32,360 nucleotides of DNA, from positions 1-32,360 of the forward strand of contig JALVQZ010000183.1 in NCBI GenBank assembly GCA_027036355.1. Direction: 5' to 3'. The stretch is from Acidimicrobiia bacterium (GTDB lineage: Bacteria; Actinomycetota; Acidimicrobiia; Spongiisociales; UBA5794). The notes below the pieces were generated by a model. It saw only the letters and a list, made by a program, of their open reading frames with translations. It did not search any database and had not been told where the DNA came from. The position numbers and the translations under genes were made by a program. Positions 20,583 through 26,035 of this stretch are shown piece after piece. The number at the start of each line of letters is the position of its first letter. Within the stretch, counting starts at the first letter, position 1.

Positions 20583-22277
20583 ATGATCCCAGTCATCTTC
20601 ATCATGGTCGGAGTCGCCGTCACCGGCGCGCTCTTCACCGCCTTCACGACCCGGCGGCGCCGCGAGCCCGACGACGGTGGACGAACCGCCGAGTACCTGG
20701 CGAAAGTGTCCCACGAGCTCCGAACTCCCCTGACGTCGGTCATCGGGATCCTGTCGGTGCTCGCCGACCGTGACGTCGCCCTCGACGACGCCGAACGGGA
20801 CGAGCTGATCCAGCTCGCCGGCATGGAAGCGGCCCGCCTCAGCCACCTCGTCGAGAACGTCCACTCCGTCTCGAGGGTCGCCAGGAACGTGCTCGAACCG
20901 GCGATCTCGCCGATCCCGATCCTCGACGCGGTGGAACACACCCTGCGCCAGTTCCCCGACGCCGAACGGCGCACCTTCGTGTGGTGCGACCCCGAACTGG
21001 TGGTCGACGCCGACCCCAACCTGCTCGGCCAGATCCTCACCAACCTCCTCCAGAACGCGCAGCGCTACGCCCCCGACGGCGAACTCGAGATCGGATGCGA
21101 GGTGGACGACGGAACGGTCGTTCTGTACGTCTCCGACGACGGCCCCGGGATCCCCGCCGATCGGCGAGAGGCCGTGTTCTCCGGCGTCGACACCTCCAAG
21201 GGTCTCGGCCTCGGCCTCCGGCTGTCCCGCGACCTGGCCCGTGCCATGTCCGGGACCCTCGACATCGTCGCTCCTCGCCGGTCCGGAACGACGTTCGCGC
21301 TTCGCCTCCCGCGTTCCCACGCCGAGCCGGTCGCCCCCGCCGACGACCGGACCGCCGAGGCGCCGGGGCTCGCCTTCTCGCCCAGAGCTCGCATCCTCGT
21401 CGACATCGCCGCGGTGCTCGAGGAGCGATCCTTGGACCGGATGGTGATCAGGCTCCAGGGCCTGTACTCGGACCTCCTCGGCGCCGACAAGGGTGTCCTC
21501 CTGATCCGGCGATCCTCGGGTGTGCTGACCCGTGCCGGCGGCTTCGGTGCCGAGGCCGACGTCTCGGTCGACCTGTCCGATCCCCTCGTCGCCGAGGCCG
21601 CCGCGACCGGCCGTCCCATCACCGTCGGCGACCTCGCGGGCGTCGGCGCCGAGAACTGGGTGTCGATCCTCGGGTGCTCCGCGGCGATCTTGCTGCCAGT
21701 GATCGACGACGGTGACCTGACCGGCATCCTCGCCGTGGGATGGGCGCACAAGCAGGACCTCCCGGGTCCGGCCGCGCTCCAGGTCGCCGCCGCCCTCGCC
21801 GACCTCGCCGGTTTCGCCATCCACCGCCATTCCCTCGCCGTCGACGCCGCCTACGAGCGTCACCTCCGCGCCAGCGTCATGGAGTCGCTCCCCATCGCCA
21901 TCTCCGTCTTCGCCGACGACCCGCCGCGAGTCGTCGACTGGAACGCCAGGGAACGCGAGCTCCTCGGCATCGACAGCGACGTCGAACGGCCCGAGGATCT
22001 CGCCGCCAGCCAAGCGAAGTTCGATGTCCGCTTCGCCGACGGCACCCCGCTGACCGAAGACAACGCACCGGTCCTCGAGGCCATCCGCACCGGGAAAGGC
22101 ATGGGTCCGTTCCTCTTGATGGTCCGGCGAGCCGACGGCAGCCAGGTCACGACCCGCACCTACTGCGCGCCGTTCCGTGACGGATCGGGAACGGTCGTCG
22201 GCGCCGTCGTGACCTCCGAGGAACTCGACGTCATCCCCGGCGGCGCCGCTCCCGGACGATCTCAGCCGAAGCGGTAA
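20583..22277 (+). CDS. histidine kinase with C-terminal GAF and PAS domains
   Basis: A 564-residue kinase with unusual domain order. One hydrophobic segment (about 3-20) is followed directly by HisKA (His44 in SHELRTPL), then the ATPase domain (N box Asn158, DDGPGI 185-190, GLGLGL 207-212). After the catalytic core come a GAF-like domain (about 265-415) and a PAS-like domain (about 425-550). Sensor domains normally precede the core. No Shine-Dalgarno is obvious at ATG 20583. The 3' end overlaps the convergent glnR by 16 bases. That regulator lacks a phospho-acceptor Asp, so it is not an obvious partner. Confidence 0.88.
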   Translation: MIPVIFIMVGVAVTGALFTAFTTRRRREPDDGGRTAEYLAKVSHELRTPLTSVIGILSVLADRDVALDDAERDELIQLAGMEAARLSHLVENVHSVSRVARNVLEPAISPIPILDAVEHTLRQFPDAERRTFVWCDPELVVDADPNLLGQILTNLLQNAQRYAPDGELEIGCEVDDGTVVLYVSDDGPGIPADRREAVFSGVDTSKGLGLGLRLSRDLARAMSGTLDIVAPRRSGTTFALRLPRSHAEPVAPADDRTAEAPGLAFSPRARILVDIAAVLEERSLDRMVIRLQGLYSDLLGADKGVLLIRRSSGVLTRAGGFGAEADVSVDLSDPLVAEAAATGRPITVGDLAGVGAENWVSILGCSAAILLPVIDDGDLTGILAVGWAHKQDLPGPAALQVAAALADLAGFAIHRHSLAVDAAYERHLRASVMESLPIAISVFADDPPRVVDWNARERELLGIDSDVERPEDLAASQAKFDVRFADGTPLTEDNAPVLEAIRTGKGMGPFLLMVRRADGSQVTTRTYCAPFRDGSGTVVGAVVTSEELDVIPGGAAPGRSQPKR

Positions 22278-22915
22278 CCCACCGAACGGACCGTCGTGAT
22301 CCACGACGCCCGCGACTCACCGAGCTTGGCCCGCAACCGTCGCACGTGCACGTCGACGGTACGCGAGCCACCGAAGTAGTCGTAGCCCCACACCTTCGAG
22401 AGGATCTGCTCGCGGGACCACACGCGGTTCGGATGCTCGACGAAGAACCGCAACAGCTCGTACTCCATGTACGTCAAGTCGATCGGGCGAGAACCGACCG
22501 ACGCCTGGTACGTCGACGTGTTGAGCTCCAGGTCGCCGAACCGGAGCACCTCGTCACCCGCCGAGTCGAGGACCGCCTTCGACCCGATCCGACCCAGCCG
22601 GACCCGCAGCTCGGCCACATCGATCGGCGTGAGGACGAAATCGTCGAACCCGTCGAACTCGCCCAGATCGGCCGTCACCGTGCGGTCGGCGACCAACAGC
22701 ACACCGATGCCATGCTCCTCGCGGATCTTGCGGCCGACGAGCGCCCCCAGGCCGACGTCGTCGCCGAGTTCGACCACCGCCGCCACCCAGCCTTGCTCGG
22801 GTTCCCGGGTCCCGACCTGAGCCACGTCGTCGACGGGGACCGGCTGGAACCCCGCGCCGAGCAGCGCCGCGGTCAGGGCGGAGGAAGGAGCCGGAGGGTA
22901 GACCGCAACGAACAT
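22262..22915 (-). CDS. glnR: GlnR-type OmpR-family nitrogen regulator, atypical receiver
   Basis: A 217-residue OmpR-type regulator. The C-terminal winged helix has the GlnR hallmark VWGYDYFGGSRTVDVHV followed by RRLRAKLG, and it ends SVGYRFG. The receiver domain is degenerate: the phospho-acceptor position is Glu49 (AAVVELGDD) and the switch Lys is replaced by Thr (DDFVLTPID). This agrees with the phosphorylation-independent GlnR group that controls ammonium assimilation in actinobacteria. ATG 22915 shares its last base pair with the glnA2 stop (TGATG), so translation is coupled. The longer frame upstream is only glnA2 antiphase. Confidence 0.83.
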   Translation of the reverse strand: MFVAVYPPAPSSALTAALLGAGFQPVPVDDVAQVGTREPEQGWVAAVVELGDDVGLGALVGRKIREEHGIGVLLVADRTVTADLGEFDGFDDFVLTPIDVAELRVRLGRIGSKAVLDSAGDEVLRFGDLELNTSTYQASVGSRPIDLTYMEYELLRFFVEHPNRVWSREQILSKVWGYDYFGGSRTVDVHVRRLRAKLGESRASWITTVRSVGYRFG

Positions 22916-24261
22916 CACAGCACCGGCAGGTACTCCTCGAGCTCGAACCGGGAGACGTGCTGCTGGTAGTCGCGCCATTCCCGGTGCTTGTTGCGCAGGA
23001 ACCACTCGAACACGTGGTCCCCCAAGGCCGCGCGCACCAGCTCGGACGACTCCATCGCCCGCAACGCGTCGGCCAGGTTCGCGGGGAGCCTTCGGATCCC
23101 CGCCGCGGTGCGTTCGCCCGCCGACATCGTCAACACGTCCTCACCCATCTCCGGAGGCAGCTCGTACGCGTTCTCCACCCCCGCCAACCCCGCGGCCAGG
23201 ATCACCGAGAACGCCAGGTACGGGTTGCACGCCGGGTCCGGGGATCGGTACTCGATCCTGGTGGAGTCGATCTTGCCCCGCTTCGTGGTCGGGACCCGCA
23301 CGAGGGCCGTCTGGTCGTTCCTGGCCCAGGTCTCGTAGATGGGCGCATCGAAACCCCCGACGAGACGCTTGTACGAGTTCACCCACTGGTTCGTCACCGC
23401 CGTGATCTCACCTGCATGGTGGAGCAATCCGGCGATGAACCCGCGGGCGACCTTCGACAGCCCGTAGGGGTCCGACCCCTCGTGGAAGGCGTTCTCGTCG
23501 CCCTGGAACAGCGACAGGTGCAGATGCAACCCGGAACCGTCGTACCGCTCCAGGGGCTTCGGCATGAACGTGGCGTAGATGCCGTGCTCCATCGCCACCT
23601 CCTTGACCGCCAGACGGGTGGTGACGAGGTTGTCGGCCATCGTCAGCGCGTCGGTGTATCGCAGGTCCAGCTCGTGTTGGGAGGGCGACACCTCGTGGTG
23701 GGAGAACTCGACGGGGATGCCCAGCTTCTCGAGGGCCAGGATCGTGTCCCTCCGGTATTCCTGGGCGACGTCGAGCGGCGTCAGGTCGAAGTAGCCGCCC
23801 CGATCGAGGACCTTCGGCTCGGGCCCGGCGTCGGCGAAGTAGAAGTACTCCAGCTCGGGACCGACGTAGAACGAGTACCCCAGCTCGGCTGCCCGTTCGA
23901 GGTTGCGACGCAGCACGTGGCGGGGATCCCCGGGGAACGGCGCGCCGTCGGGGGTCACGATGTCGCAGAACATGCGAGCCGTGTCGCCACCCCGGCGCCA
24001 CGGCAGGATCTGGAACGTGGCCGGATCCGGCCGGGCCAGCATGTCGGCCTCCGAGACCCGCGAGAACCCGTCGATCGACGTACCGTCGAAGCTGAGCCCT
24101 TCCGCGAGCGCCACCTCCAACTCGGCGGGGGTGATCGCGAAGGACTTCAGGAACCCTTGCACGTCGGTGAACCACAACCGGACGAACCGGATGCCCCGTT
24201 CCTCGACGGTGCGCAACACGTAGTCCCGTTGACGGTCGGGAGCCGATCGTGACGTGTCCAT
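22915..24261 (-). CDS. glnA2: type I glutamine synthetase, GlnA2-like
   Basis: A 448-residue GSI-family enzyme that ligates ammonia (or, for some actinobacterial GlnA2/A3 proteins, a polyamine) to glutamate using ATP. The N-terminus TVEERGIRFVRLWFTDVQGF, the FDGTSIDGFSRVSEADM segment, GPELEYFYF, HHEVSPSQHELDL and NQWVNSYKRL are all present. Length (about 450) fits GlnA2 rather than the longer adenylylated GlnA1. ATG 24261 has no Shine-Dalgarno but a TACGAT hexamer ends six bases before it. It is co-transcribed with glnR and divergent from glnII across a predicted GlnR operator. Confidence 0.93.
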   Translation of the reverse strand: MDTSRSAPDRQRDYVLRTVEERGIRFVRLWFTDVQGFLKSFAITPAELEVALAEGLSFDGTSIDGFSRVSEADMLARPDPATFQILPWRRGGDTARMFCDIVTPDGAPFPGDPRHVLRRNLERAAELGYSFYVGPELEYFYFADAGPEPKVLDRGGYFDLTPLDVAQEYRRDTILALEKLGIPVEFSHHEVSPSQHELDLRYTDALTMADNLVTTRLAVKEVAMEHGIYATFMPKPLERYDGSGLHLHLSLFQGDENAFHEGSDPYGLSKVARGFIAGLLHHAGEITAVTNQWVNSYKRLVGGFDAPIYETWARNDQTALVRVPTTKRGKIDSTRIEYRSPDPACNPYLAFSVILAAGLAGVENAYELPPEMGEDVLTMSAGERTAAGIRRLPANLADALRAMESSELVRAALGDHVFEWFLRNKHREWRDYQQHVSRFELEEYLPVL

Positions 24262-24267
24262 CCCCGC

Positions 24268-24273
24268 ATCGTA
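24268..24273 (-). promoter_or_regulatory. -10 hexamer TACGAT, leaderless promoter of glnA2-glnR
   Basis: TACGAT, six bases, ATG 24261. The -35 region (TAGGCG at 24291-24296) is poor, which fits dependence on an activator bound just upstream at 24312-24349. Confidence 0.5.
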
Positions 24274-24311
24274 CGATGCCGCCCGCCATTCGCCTACCTC
24301 GGGTCGGCCCC

Positions 24312-24349
24312 GAAACACAGCGTTCACATTGCGGTTACCGCGACGTAAC
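24312..24349. promoter_or_regulatory. predicted GlnR operator: four 5-bp half-sites at 11-bp spacing
   Basis: GAAAC (24312), TTCAC (24323), GTTAC (24334) and GTAAC (24345) each start exactly 11 bp apart. Published actinobacterial GlnR boxes are described as gTnAc-n6-GaAAc-n6-gTnAc-n6-GaAAc, the same 5-plus-6 periodicity. Relative to a leaderless glnA2 start the site spans about -51 to -88, a normal activator position; it lies 81 bp before the glnII ATG. Recognised by eye, not by a matrix scan. Confidence 0.65.
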
Positions 24350-24430
24350 CGCGTCCGGCGACACTGCCGCCGACGGCGGCGCCGCGGCGTCGCCGTGCTC
24401 CGAAGCACATCGGTGAAAGCGAGGAACCAC

Positions 24431-25441
24431 ATGGCGTACCGGGCCGAGTACATCTGGATCGACGGTCAGAAGCCGACCGCCAAGCTCCGTTCGAAGACCA
24501 AGGTCGTCCCCGAGGGTCAGGAGCCGCCCATCTGGGGATTCGACGGCTCCAGCACCGAGCAGGCCCCCGGGAACTCGTCGGACTGCGTCCTGCGGCCCGT
24601 CAAGGTCGTTCCCGACCCGATCCGGGGCGGCCACGACGTTCTCGTGATGTGCGAGGTCCTCACCGTCGACATGGAACCGCACGAGTCGAACACCCGGGCG
24701 CCGCTGCAGGCCGTCGCCGAACGCTACGCCGACCACGAACCCTGGTTCGGGCTCGAGCAGGAGTACACGTTCTTCAAGGACGGACGGCCGCACGGATGGC
24801 CGGTCATGGGTTTCCCCGCTCCCCAGGGCGGCTACTACTGCGGTATCGGCGCCGACGAGATCTGGGGCCGAGACGTCGTCGAGGCCCACACCAAGGCGTG
24901 CATCGACGCCGGGTTGGCGATCTCGGGCACCAACGCCGAGGTCATGATCGGCCAGTGGGAGTTCCAGATCGGGCCGCTGAGTCCCCTCGAGGTCGGCGAC
25001 CAGGTCTGGCTGGCTCGCTGGCTGCTGTACCGGATCGCCGAGGACTTCGACATCTCGGCCCATCTGGACCCGAAGCCCGTCGAAGGCGACTGGAACGGCG
25101 CCGGGATGCACACGAACTTCTCCACCAAGGAGATGCGCGAGTCCTACGACGCCATCATCGCCGCCTGCGAGGCGTTGGGGAAGCGAGCCGACGAGCACAT
25201 CAAGAACTACGGGGCCGGGATCGAGAAGCGGCTCACGGGCCTGCACGAGACCGCCCCGTGGACCGAGTACAGCTACGGCGTGTCCGACCGGGGCGCATCG
25301 GTCCGGATCCCCTGGCAGGTGGCCAAGGAGGGGAAGGGCTACATCGAGGACCGGCGGCCCAACGCCAACGCCGATCCGTACGTCGTCGCCCGGCTCATCA
25401 CCGACACGGTGTGTTCGTACCTGGAGGAGACAGGAGGCTGA
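24431..25441 (+). CDS. glnII: type II (eukaryote-type) glutamine synthetase
   Basis: A 336-residue GSII, the short octameric or decameric glutamine synthetase found in eukaryotes, rhizobia and actinobacteria. Motifs are WGFDGSSTEQAPGNSSD, GPLSPLEVGDQVW, WNGAGMHTNFSTKEMR and NANADPYVVARLITDT. It is unlike the GSI enzyme encoded divergently. The start at ATG 24431 is preceded by GCGAGGAACC and gives the standard N-terminus; the open frame upstream is non-coding. The divergent pairing with glnA2 across a GlnR-like box implies joint nitrogen control. Confidence 0.95.
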   Translation: MAYRAEYIWIDGQKPTAKLRSKTKVVPEGQEPPIWGFDGSSTEQAPGNSSDCVLRPVKVVPDPIRGGHDVLVMCEVLTVDMEPHESNTRAPLQAVAERYADHEPWFGLEQEYTFFKDGRPHGWPVMGFPAPQGGYYCGIGADEIWGRDVVEAHTKACIDAGLAISGTNAEVMIGQWEFQIGPLSPLEVGDQVWLARWLLYRIAEDFDISAHLDPKPVEGDWNGAGMHTNFSTKEMRESYDAIIAACEALGKRADEHIKNYGAGIEKRLTGLHETAPWTEYSYGVSDRGASVRIPWQVAKEGKGYIEDRRPNANADPYVVARLITDTVCSYLEETGG

Positions 25442-25453
25442 TCGCCGGCGCGC

Positions 25454-26035
25454 CTACGGCGTCGCCGCCTTCACGGCGTTGAGCGCCGCCGTCAGCGCCG
25501 CCACCTTGGCGTCGAAGTCCTCCACGGCCTGACGGCGGAGCGTGCCGTCGTCGGGAGCGCGCAGACCGTCGATGACGGCGTCCGATGCGGTGACGAGGTC
25601 GCTCGCGGCCGCCTGCACCGCCGGCCACAGGTCCGGATAGCCGTTGGCGTCGGGAACCGCGGTGGCATCGATCTCCGACGCCAGGGTCTCGGCCCTGGTC
25701 TTGACGTCCTCGAACCCGGCCAGCGCCTGGTCGAAGGTGATGTCCCGCGCCTCCCATGCCTCGTTCGTGGCGTGGAGGTCCGACTGGATCTCGGTGGTGA
25801 CGCCCTGGAACCGCTCCACCTCACCGAGGAAGGCTCGGATGTCGGCCGGGAGCGTCGTCGAGGTGGTGGTGGGCGGCTCGGTGGTGGTCGTCGTCGACGA
25901 CGTCGACGTCGTGGACGCGGCGATGTCGGCGGGCGGCAGGGCGTTCACGAAGACGTACGTGAACCCGAGCAACCCGACGATCACCAGCGGCAGGATCCAC
26001 CGGCCGTGCTTGGGGTCTTCCTTGCTCACGGGCAT
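25454..26035 (-). CDS. membrane-anchored hypothetical protein with helical extracytoplasmic domain
   Basis: A 193-residue protein I do not recognise. The N-terminus is short and charged, followed by one membrane span (about 13-31), a Ser/Thr-rich linker (about 40-62) and a domain rich in Ala, Asp and Glu that looks fully helical (63-193), possibly a three- or four-helix bundle. It converges on glnII with a 12-bp gap. ATG 26035 is preceded by CCTCCTAACCTCC, which is the opposite of a ribosome-binding site, so initiation is unclear; GTG 26029 is an alternative. The 36-bp repeat block lies directly upstream. Confidence 0.7.
   Translation of the reverse strand: MPVSKEDPKHGRWILPLVIVGLLGFTYVFVNALPPADIAASTTSTSSTTTTTEPPTTTSTTLPADIRAFLGEVERFQGVTTEIQSDLHATNEAWEARDITFDQALAGFEDVKTRAETLASEIDATAVPDANGYPDLWPAVQAAASDLVTASDAVIDGLRAPDDGTLRRQAVEDFDAKVAALTAALNAVKAATP

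Follow-up and report, generated by a model that had tools for sequence, protein, structure and literature searches.

The window, i.e., the whole stretch of 32,360 nucleotides analysed here, belongs to the draft assembly (2.99 Mb; 2,991,144 bases) of an uncultured actinobacterium of the class Acidimicrobiia. It carries two divergent glutamine synthetase genes: glnII (24431–25441, + strand), coding for a type II enzyme of 336 aa (NF041605, 644.8 bits for a cut-off of 500), and glnA2 (22915–24261, − strand), coding for a type I enzyme of 448 aa (TIGR00653, 449 bits for a cut-off of 429). The synthetase active-site motifs are kept in GlnA2, whose flap has Asp at the place of Glu (GFDAP), a substitution shared with many orthologues. 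The second gene of the glnA2 operon is glnR (22262–22915, − strand; 217 aa), which encodes an OmpR/PhoB-family regulator with a pseudo-receiver and whose start overlaps the glnA2 stop by 1 nt (TGATG).

A gap of 169 bp (24262–24430) separates the ATG of glnA2 (24261, −) from that of glnII (24431, +). It contains a predicted GlnR-type operator of 38 bases (24312–24349, +), made of four 5-bp half-sites in direct orientation: GAAAC, TTCAC, GTTAC, and GTAAC start at 24312, 24323, 24334, and 24345, respectively, in steps of exactly 11 bp. All four have A at the fourth and C at the fifth position, and they are separated by 6-bp spacers. An earlier reading of this DNA from its sequence only had already described the operon, the gap, and the half-sites; the gene coordinates and a fresh reading of the window gave the same layout and positions.

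Any one of these half-sites is common by itself, which would favor a chance alignment of four short words devoid of regulatory role. We searched the whole genome with the pattern GWAAC-n6-TTCAC-n6-GTNAC-n6-GWAAC, allowing up to 3 mismatches: the only match in the 2,991,144 bases is the operator itself, with 0 mismatches, and the reversed pattern gave 0 matches in the same genome under the same tolerance. A weight matrix trained on relatives, from which near copies of the window's box had been taken out, gave 52.0 bits to the operator, whereas the best of 100 shuffles reached −5.8. As the box is, moreover, kept across families and tracks glnR (see below), we discarded a chance alignment, whose probability is negligible.

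The regulator encoded downstream of glnA2

The GlnR-type identity first proposed for the regulator is well founded. Its nearest solved relatives are all GlnR, namely 8hig and 8hml from Saccharopolyspora erythraea and 8hih, attributed to Mycobacterium tuberculosis on the basis of its title in the structure library. The best sequence matches are 8hig (125 bits) and 8hih (120 bits), as compared to 83 bits for MtrA; a profile search gave 176 and 172 bits, respectively, versus 116 for RegX3. In the structure model (mean pLDDT 89.5, pTM 0.54), both domains are confident and the linker is uncertain. The best fold match is 8hih, and the C-terminal winged-helix DNA-binding domain is most similar to GlnR, being 56% identical to that of the Saccharopolyspora protein (8hig).

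The receiver domain is atypical and independent of Asp phosphorylation: Asp50 of GlnR corresponds to Glu49 in the window regulator, and most orthologues have Glu at this position, the others having Asp, Gln, Ser, Val, or Ala. Since a passage of PMC12632262, citing Lin 2014, states that the conserved Asp is needed for GlnR to form dimers, the presence of Glu49 instead leads us to consider the protein as a diverged GlnR-like regulator rather than a textbook GlnR. A gene for a histidine kinase with a GAF domain (20583–22277, +) is convergent with glnR, the two genes sharing 16 bp at the 3′ end of the latter. It adjoins glnR in the nearest relatives only (L115, and as a fragment in L034); we did not retain this kinase as a partner of GlnR, as it is not conserved any further and Glu49 argues against phosphotransfer.

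The box and glnR across the order

We scored the DNA upstream of glnII in 70 genomes of the order, the relatives being mostly Acidimicrobiia metagenome assemblies, with the matrix deprived of near copies. The box was found in all 49 genomes carrying glnR (25 to 54 bits) and was absent in 19 of the 21 genomes without a glnR match (all below 0 bits); it is conserved in about 50 relatives. The two exceptions are G057, where the contig stops within glnA2, normally the gene ahead of glnR, and G120, which is 89% complete, so that glnR may simply be absent from both assemblies. The sequence-only reading had staked its proposal on the half-sites being retained in those relatives in which the two genes still form a divergent pair, and they are; the box is also retained where glnII sits apart from glnA2–glnR (e.g., G126, G125, G104, G038, G116, and G115). 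Within single genera, the box has disappeared together with glnR (G097 vs. G098; G082–G086 vs. G081; G018 vs. G016, G017, and G020).

Some of these losses have to be counted with care. In some genomes, glnA2–glnR was deleted in situ beside glnII. In G084, for example, a conserved neighbor lies about 100 bp from glnII, and in L050 about 100 bp separate the end of the piperidine-6-carboxylate dehydrogenase gene from glnII. A single event may have removed both the operator and the regulator there; such losses are therefore not independent, and the independent result is the one obtained for amtB (see below). L050, L056, L061, L062, and L066, all of which lost glnA2–glnR, still have this dehydrogenase gene flanking glnII on one side, and L050, L061, and L066 also have the short-chain dehydrogenase gene on the other. 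The in situ deletion is a clean one, and relatives in the genus of these genomes are also devoid of amtB.

Other arrangements were observed as well. In L080, L083, L084, L086, L088, and L091 (Candidatus Actinomarina and related), glnII is preceded by a GlnR-like gene in divergent orientation; the box typical of the order is not recognizable at glnII in these six cases, where the operator has possibly diverged. The genes follow each other in the tandem order glnII-glnA2-glnR in L081 (the cultured Desertimonas flava), L087, and L103, with a similar box ahead in L081 and L087.

The operator precedes the type I synthetase gene glnA (TIGR00653, about 640–670 bits) instead of glnII in families f3, f6, and f7. 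Among the 125 genomes with either gene, glnA (above 600 bits) was found in 46 and glnII in 79, and none has both; 13 genomes of the order, several of them incomplete, have neither. The box is present upstream of glnA in 31 out of 31 glnR-carrying genomes examined (matrix score above 24 bits) and absent in 6 of the 7 without glnR; even in family f8, where glnA sits apart from glnA2–glnR, glnA is boxed (24 to 53 bits with the matrix trained on the boxes upstream of glnII). As glnA and glnII, which code for synthetases of different types, never occur together and yet share this operator, one enzyme seems to have taken the place of the other under a retained switch, the operator being either inherited or convergent. 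The regulator gene, for its part, follows glnA2 on the same strand, within 140 nt, in 73 of the 74 glnA2-type loci. This near-constant pairing and the glnA/glnII exchange are, in our view, new points.

The amtB gene of the same genome, located on another contig (C198), is preceded by the box GTAAC-n6-GAAAC-n6-GCGAC-n6-GAAAC, followed by 10 nt and then by TACCTT. This box matches almost exactly the consensus published for Streptomyces, gTnAc-n6-GaAAc-n6-GtnAC-n6-GAAAc and variants (PMC10704036). Across the order, a significant run of four half-sites was found at amtB in 41 of 47 regions from glnR-carrying genomes, versus 2 of 23 from genomes without glnR (G057 and G135); as G135 is boxed at glnA as well as at amtB, glnR may have been missed in its assembly. 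Being unlinked to glnR and nevertheless tracking it, the amtB box removes the caveat of joint deletion. It also means that the module is not self-contained, as had been supposed initially, since a canonical GlnR box at amtB makes this gene a second target.

We then turned to the size of the regulon by pattern searches over the whole genome. A looser pattern yielded 18 sites against 13 for its reversed control, too close a yield for a wider regulon to be retained. Among the looser-pattern sites inspected, the amtB site is, besides the operator of the window, the only one upstream of a nitrogen gene; another candidate, C35:9582, was set aside because it lies inside a methyltransferase-like reading frame. 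The regulon appears small, the amtB box being the only other clear one found.

Across the order, the words at synthetase promoters come in the order GWAAC-TTCAC-GTTAC (or GCAAC)-GAAAC. Nearly all glnII promoters and most glnA promoters have TTCAC(A) as the second half-site (24323–24328 in the window), which is more constant than the other three; amtB boxes carry other words there. TTCAC differs from the GAAAC of the Streptomyces b-site, a mismatch that we counted against a GlnR operator. One may wonder whether the site is bound mainly by MtrA or PhoP, OmpR-family regulators with similar half-sites, GlnR being secondary or absent. Indeed, a passage of PMC10704036, citing Zhu 2019, reports that MtrA binds GlnR boxes in Streptomyces. 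PhoP cross-regulates amtB in the same genus, and MtrA-like regulators are encoded in the present genome. The invariant GTTCACA around the second half-site resembles PhoP/MtrA repeats, which would also speak for these regulators. However, the putative GlnR boxes co-occur with glnR at glnII, glnA, and amtB alike, and G082 and G084, which have no glnR, keep MtrA-like regulators scoring equally well (about 250 bits) whereas the whole box, GTTCACA included, is gone. Tracing the MtrA-like genes, thus, did not show the site persisting with them independently of GlnR; we rejected them as main binders and consider it improbable that MtrA or PhoP is the main binder, even if they may compete with GlnR at the same site.

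Promoter geometry on both sides of the box

A scan of 22100–25700 for consensus promoters and terminators found nothing; the two −10 elements described here come from the comparison between genomes. The predicted −10 of glnII, GACACT (24360–24365, +), starts 10 nt after the box, which would place the transcription start at about 24372. In the 51 boxed glnII sequences, the hexamer located 10 nt past the box always ends in T and has the form NANNNT in 47 cases. Such an offset fits a box standing in for the −35 element in the manner of PhoB-type activators. On the other side, the predicted −10 of the glnA2–glnR operon, TACGAT (24268–24273, −), lies 38 nt from the box; transcription would start at the ATG of glnA2, yielding a leaderless, or nearly leaderless, transcript.

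In nearly all family-1 relatives, the glnA2 −10, TAC(G/C)AT, is found 37–39 nt from the first half-site; in G066, the distance is 27 nt, i.e., exactly one 11-bp period shorter. Eight genomes from families f6 and f7 keep 38–39 nt here as well. Identity within the 38-nt spacer itself is only about 34%, and relatives have between about 80 and 140 nt from the box to the glnII start. As the −10 distances are constant on both sides while other lengths drift, length is held at both promoters; we regard this fixed two-promoter geometry as another new point.

Whether the operator also acts on glnA2–glnR is less straightforward. It could serve glnII (or glnA) alone, the glnA2–glnR promoter being unaffected and the constant distance a mere by-product: the box is oriented towards glnII/glnA, 10 nt from that −10, the distance to the glnA2 −10 differs in families f2 and f3, and, of the seven glnA2–glnR loci located away from the partner synthetase, six are devoid of a significant four-half-site box and the seventh shows two half-sites. 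This explanation does not easily account for a distance maintained in family 1 (including the one-period step of G066) and in eight genomes of other families despite a poorly conserved spacer and a drifting glnII side. We, thus, find it the less probable one, and consider that the operator likely affects the expression of glnA2–glnR, the coupling being argued from the fixed position of the glnA2 −10. Of the shared site and autoregulation proposed in the sequence-only reading, glnII stands as a conserved target, and control of glnA2–glnR is likely, though argued indirectly; the unlinked loci being mostly without a box, autoregulation is not a general property.

Taken on these comparisons, the operator-like character first attributed to the site is upheld by the conservation of the box, its co-occurrence with glnR, the fixed spacings, and the consensus box at amtB. 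The box is retained almost exactly where glnR is, so that GlnR very probably switches on ammonium capture through it; we are confident in seeing 24312–24349 as the operator of the co-encoded GlnR, taking the place of the −35 element and activating glnII. Four GlnR protomers would probably line up head to tail along one face of the DNA, replace the −35 element of the glnII promoter upstream of its −10, and very likely activate glnII, presumably under nitrogen limitation. Once bound, they would also stand at a fixed distance from the −10 of glnA2–glnR and would probably adjust that operon too, GlnR thereby feeding back on its own gene as activator or repressor.

Comparison with known GlnR systems

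In Streptomyces, GlnR activates glnII, glnA, and amtB (PMC3087709). The GlnR box of glnA and amtB in Streptomyces coelicolor (a-b-a-b) is similarly made of four direct half-sites with an 11-bp period, upstream of synthetase and ammonium transporter genes; it differs from the present one, where TTCAC is near-invariant as the second half-site at synthetase promoters and where a single operator stands between two promoters at fixed distances. Streptomyces GlnR and GlnRII, both atypical OmpR-family response regulators, likewise have a receiver that is not of the phosphorylatable kind, and linkage to glnII is common to the window glnR and to glnRII, which adjoins glnII (PMC3087709). In contrast, the receiver of the window regulator is strongly diverged, with Glu49 at the Asp50 position, its gene forms a two-gene operon with a type I synthetase, and only two clear targets were found. 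The glnRA operon of Firmicutes, in which the repressor GlnR is co-transcribed with a glutamine synthetase (PMC9249791), also couples regulator and synthetase with a site before the operon; the protein family is unrelated and the operator different, so that the likeness is an analogy only. No description of GlnR control in Acidimicrobiia was found in the literature searched, and our results extend it to this class in the form of a very small regulon whose operator is well defined. The GlnR of Firmicutes belongs to the MerR family.

According to PMC10704036, the way in which GlnR senses nitrogen is still unknown. A lineage without the phospho-acceptor Asp and with a near-constant partner gene offers a concrete candidate for it. 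Because glnR follows glnA2 in nearly all loci and is lost together with it, one could speculate, as a long shot, that GlnR senses nitrogen through GlnA2, which, with glutamine bound, would contact the unphosphorylatable pseudo-receiver and switch GlnR off. The model for such a device is the feedback-inhibited synthetase that acts with the unrelated GlnR of Firmicutes. If this were true, the operator between glnII and glnA2–glnR would close a complete feedback loop.
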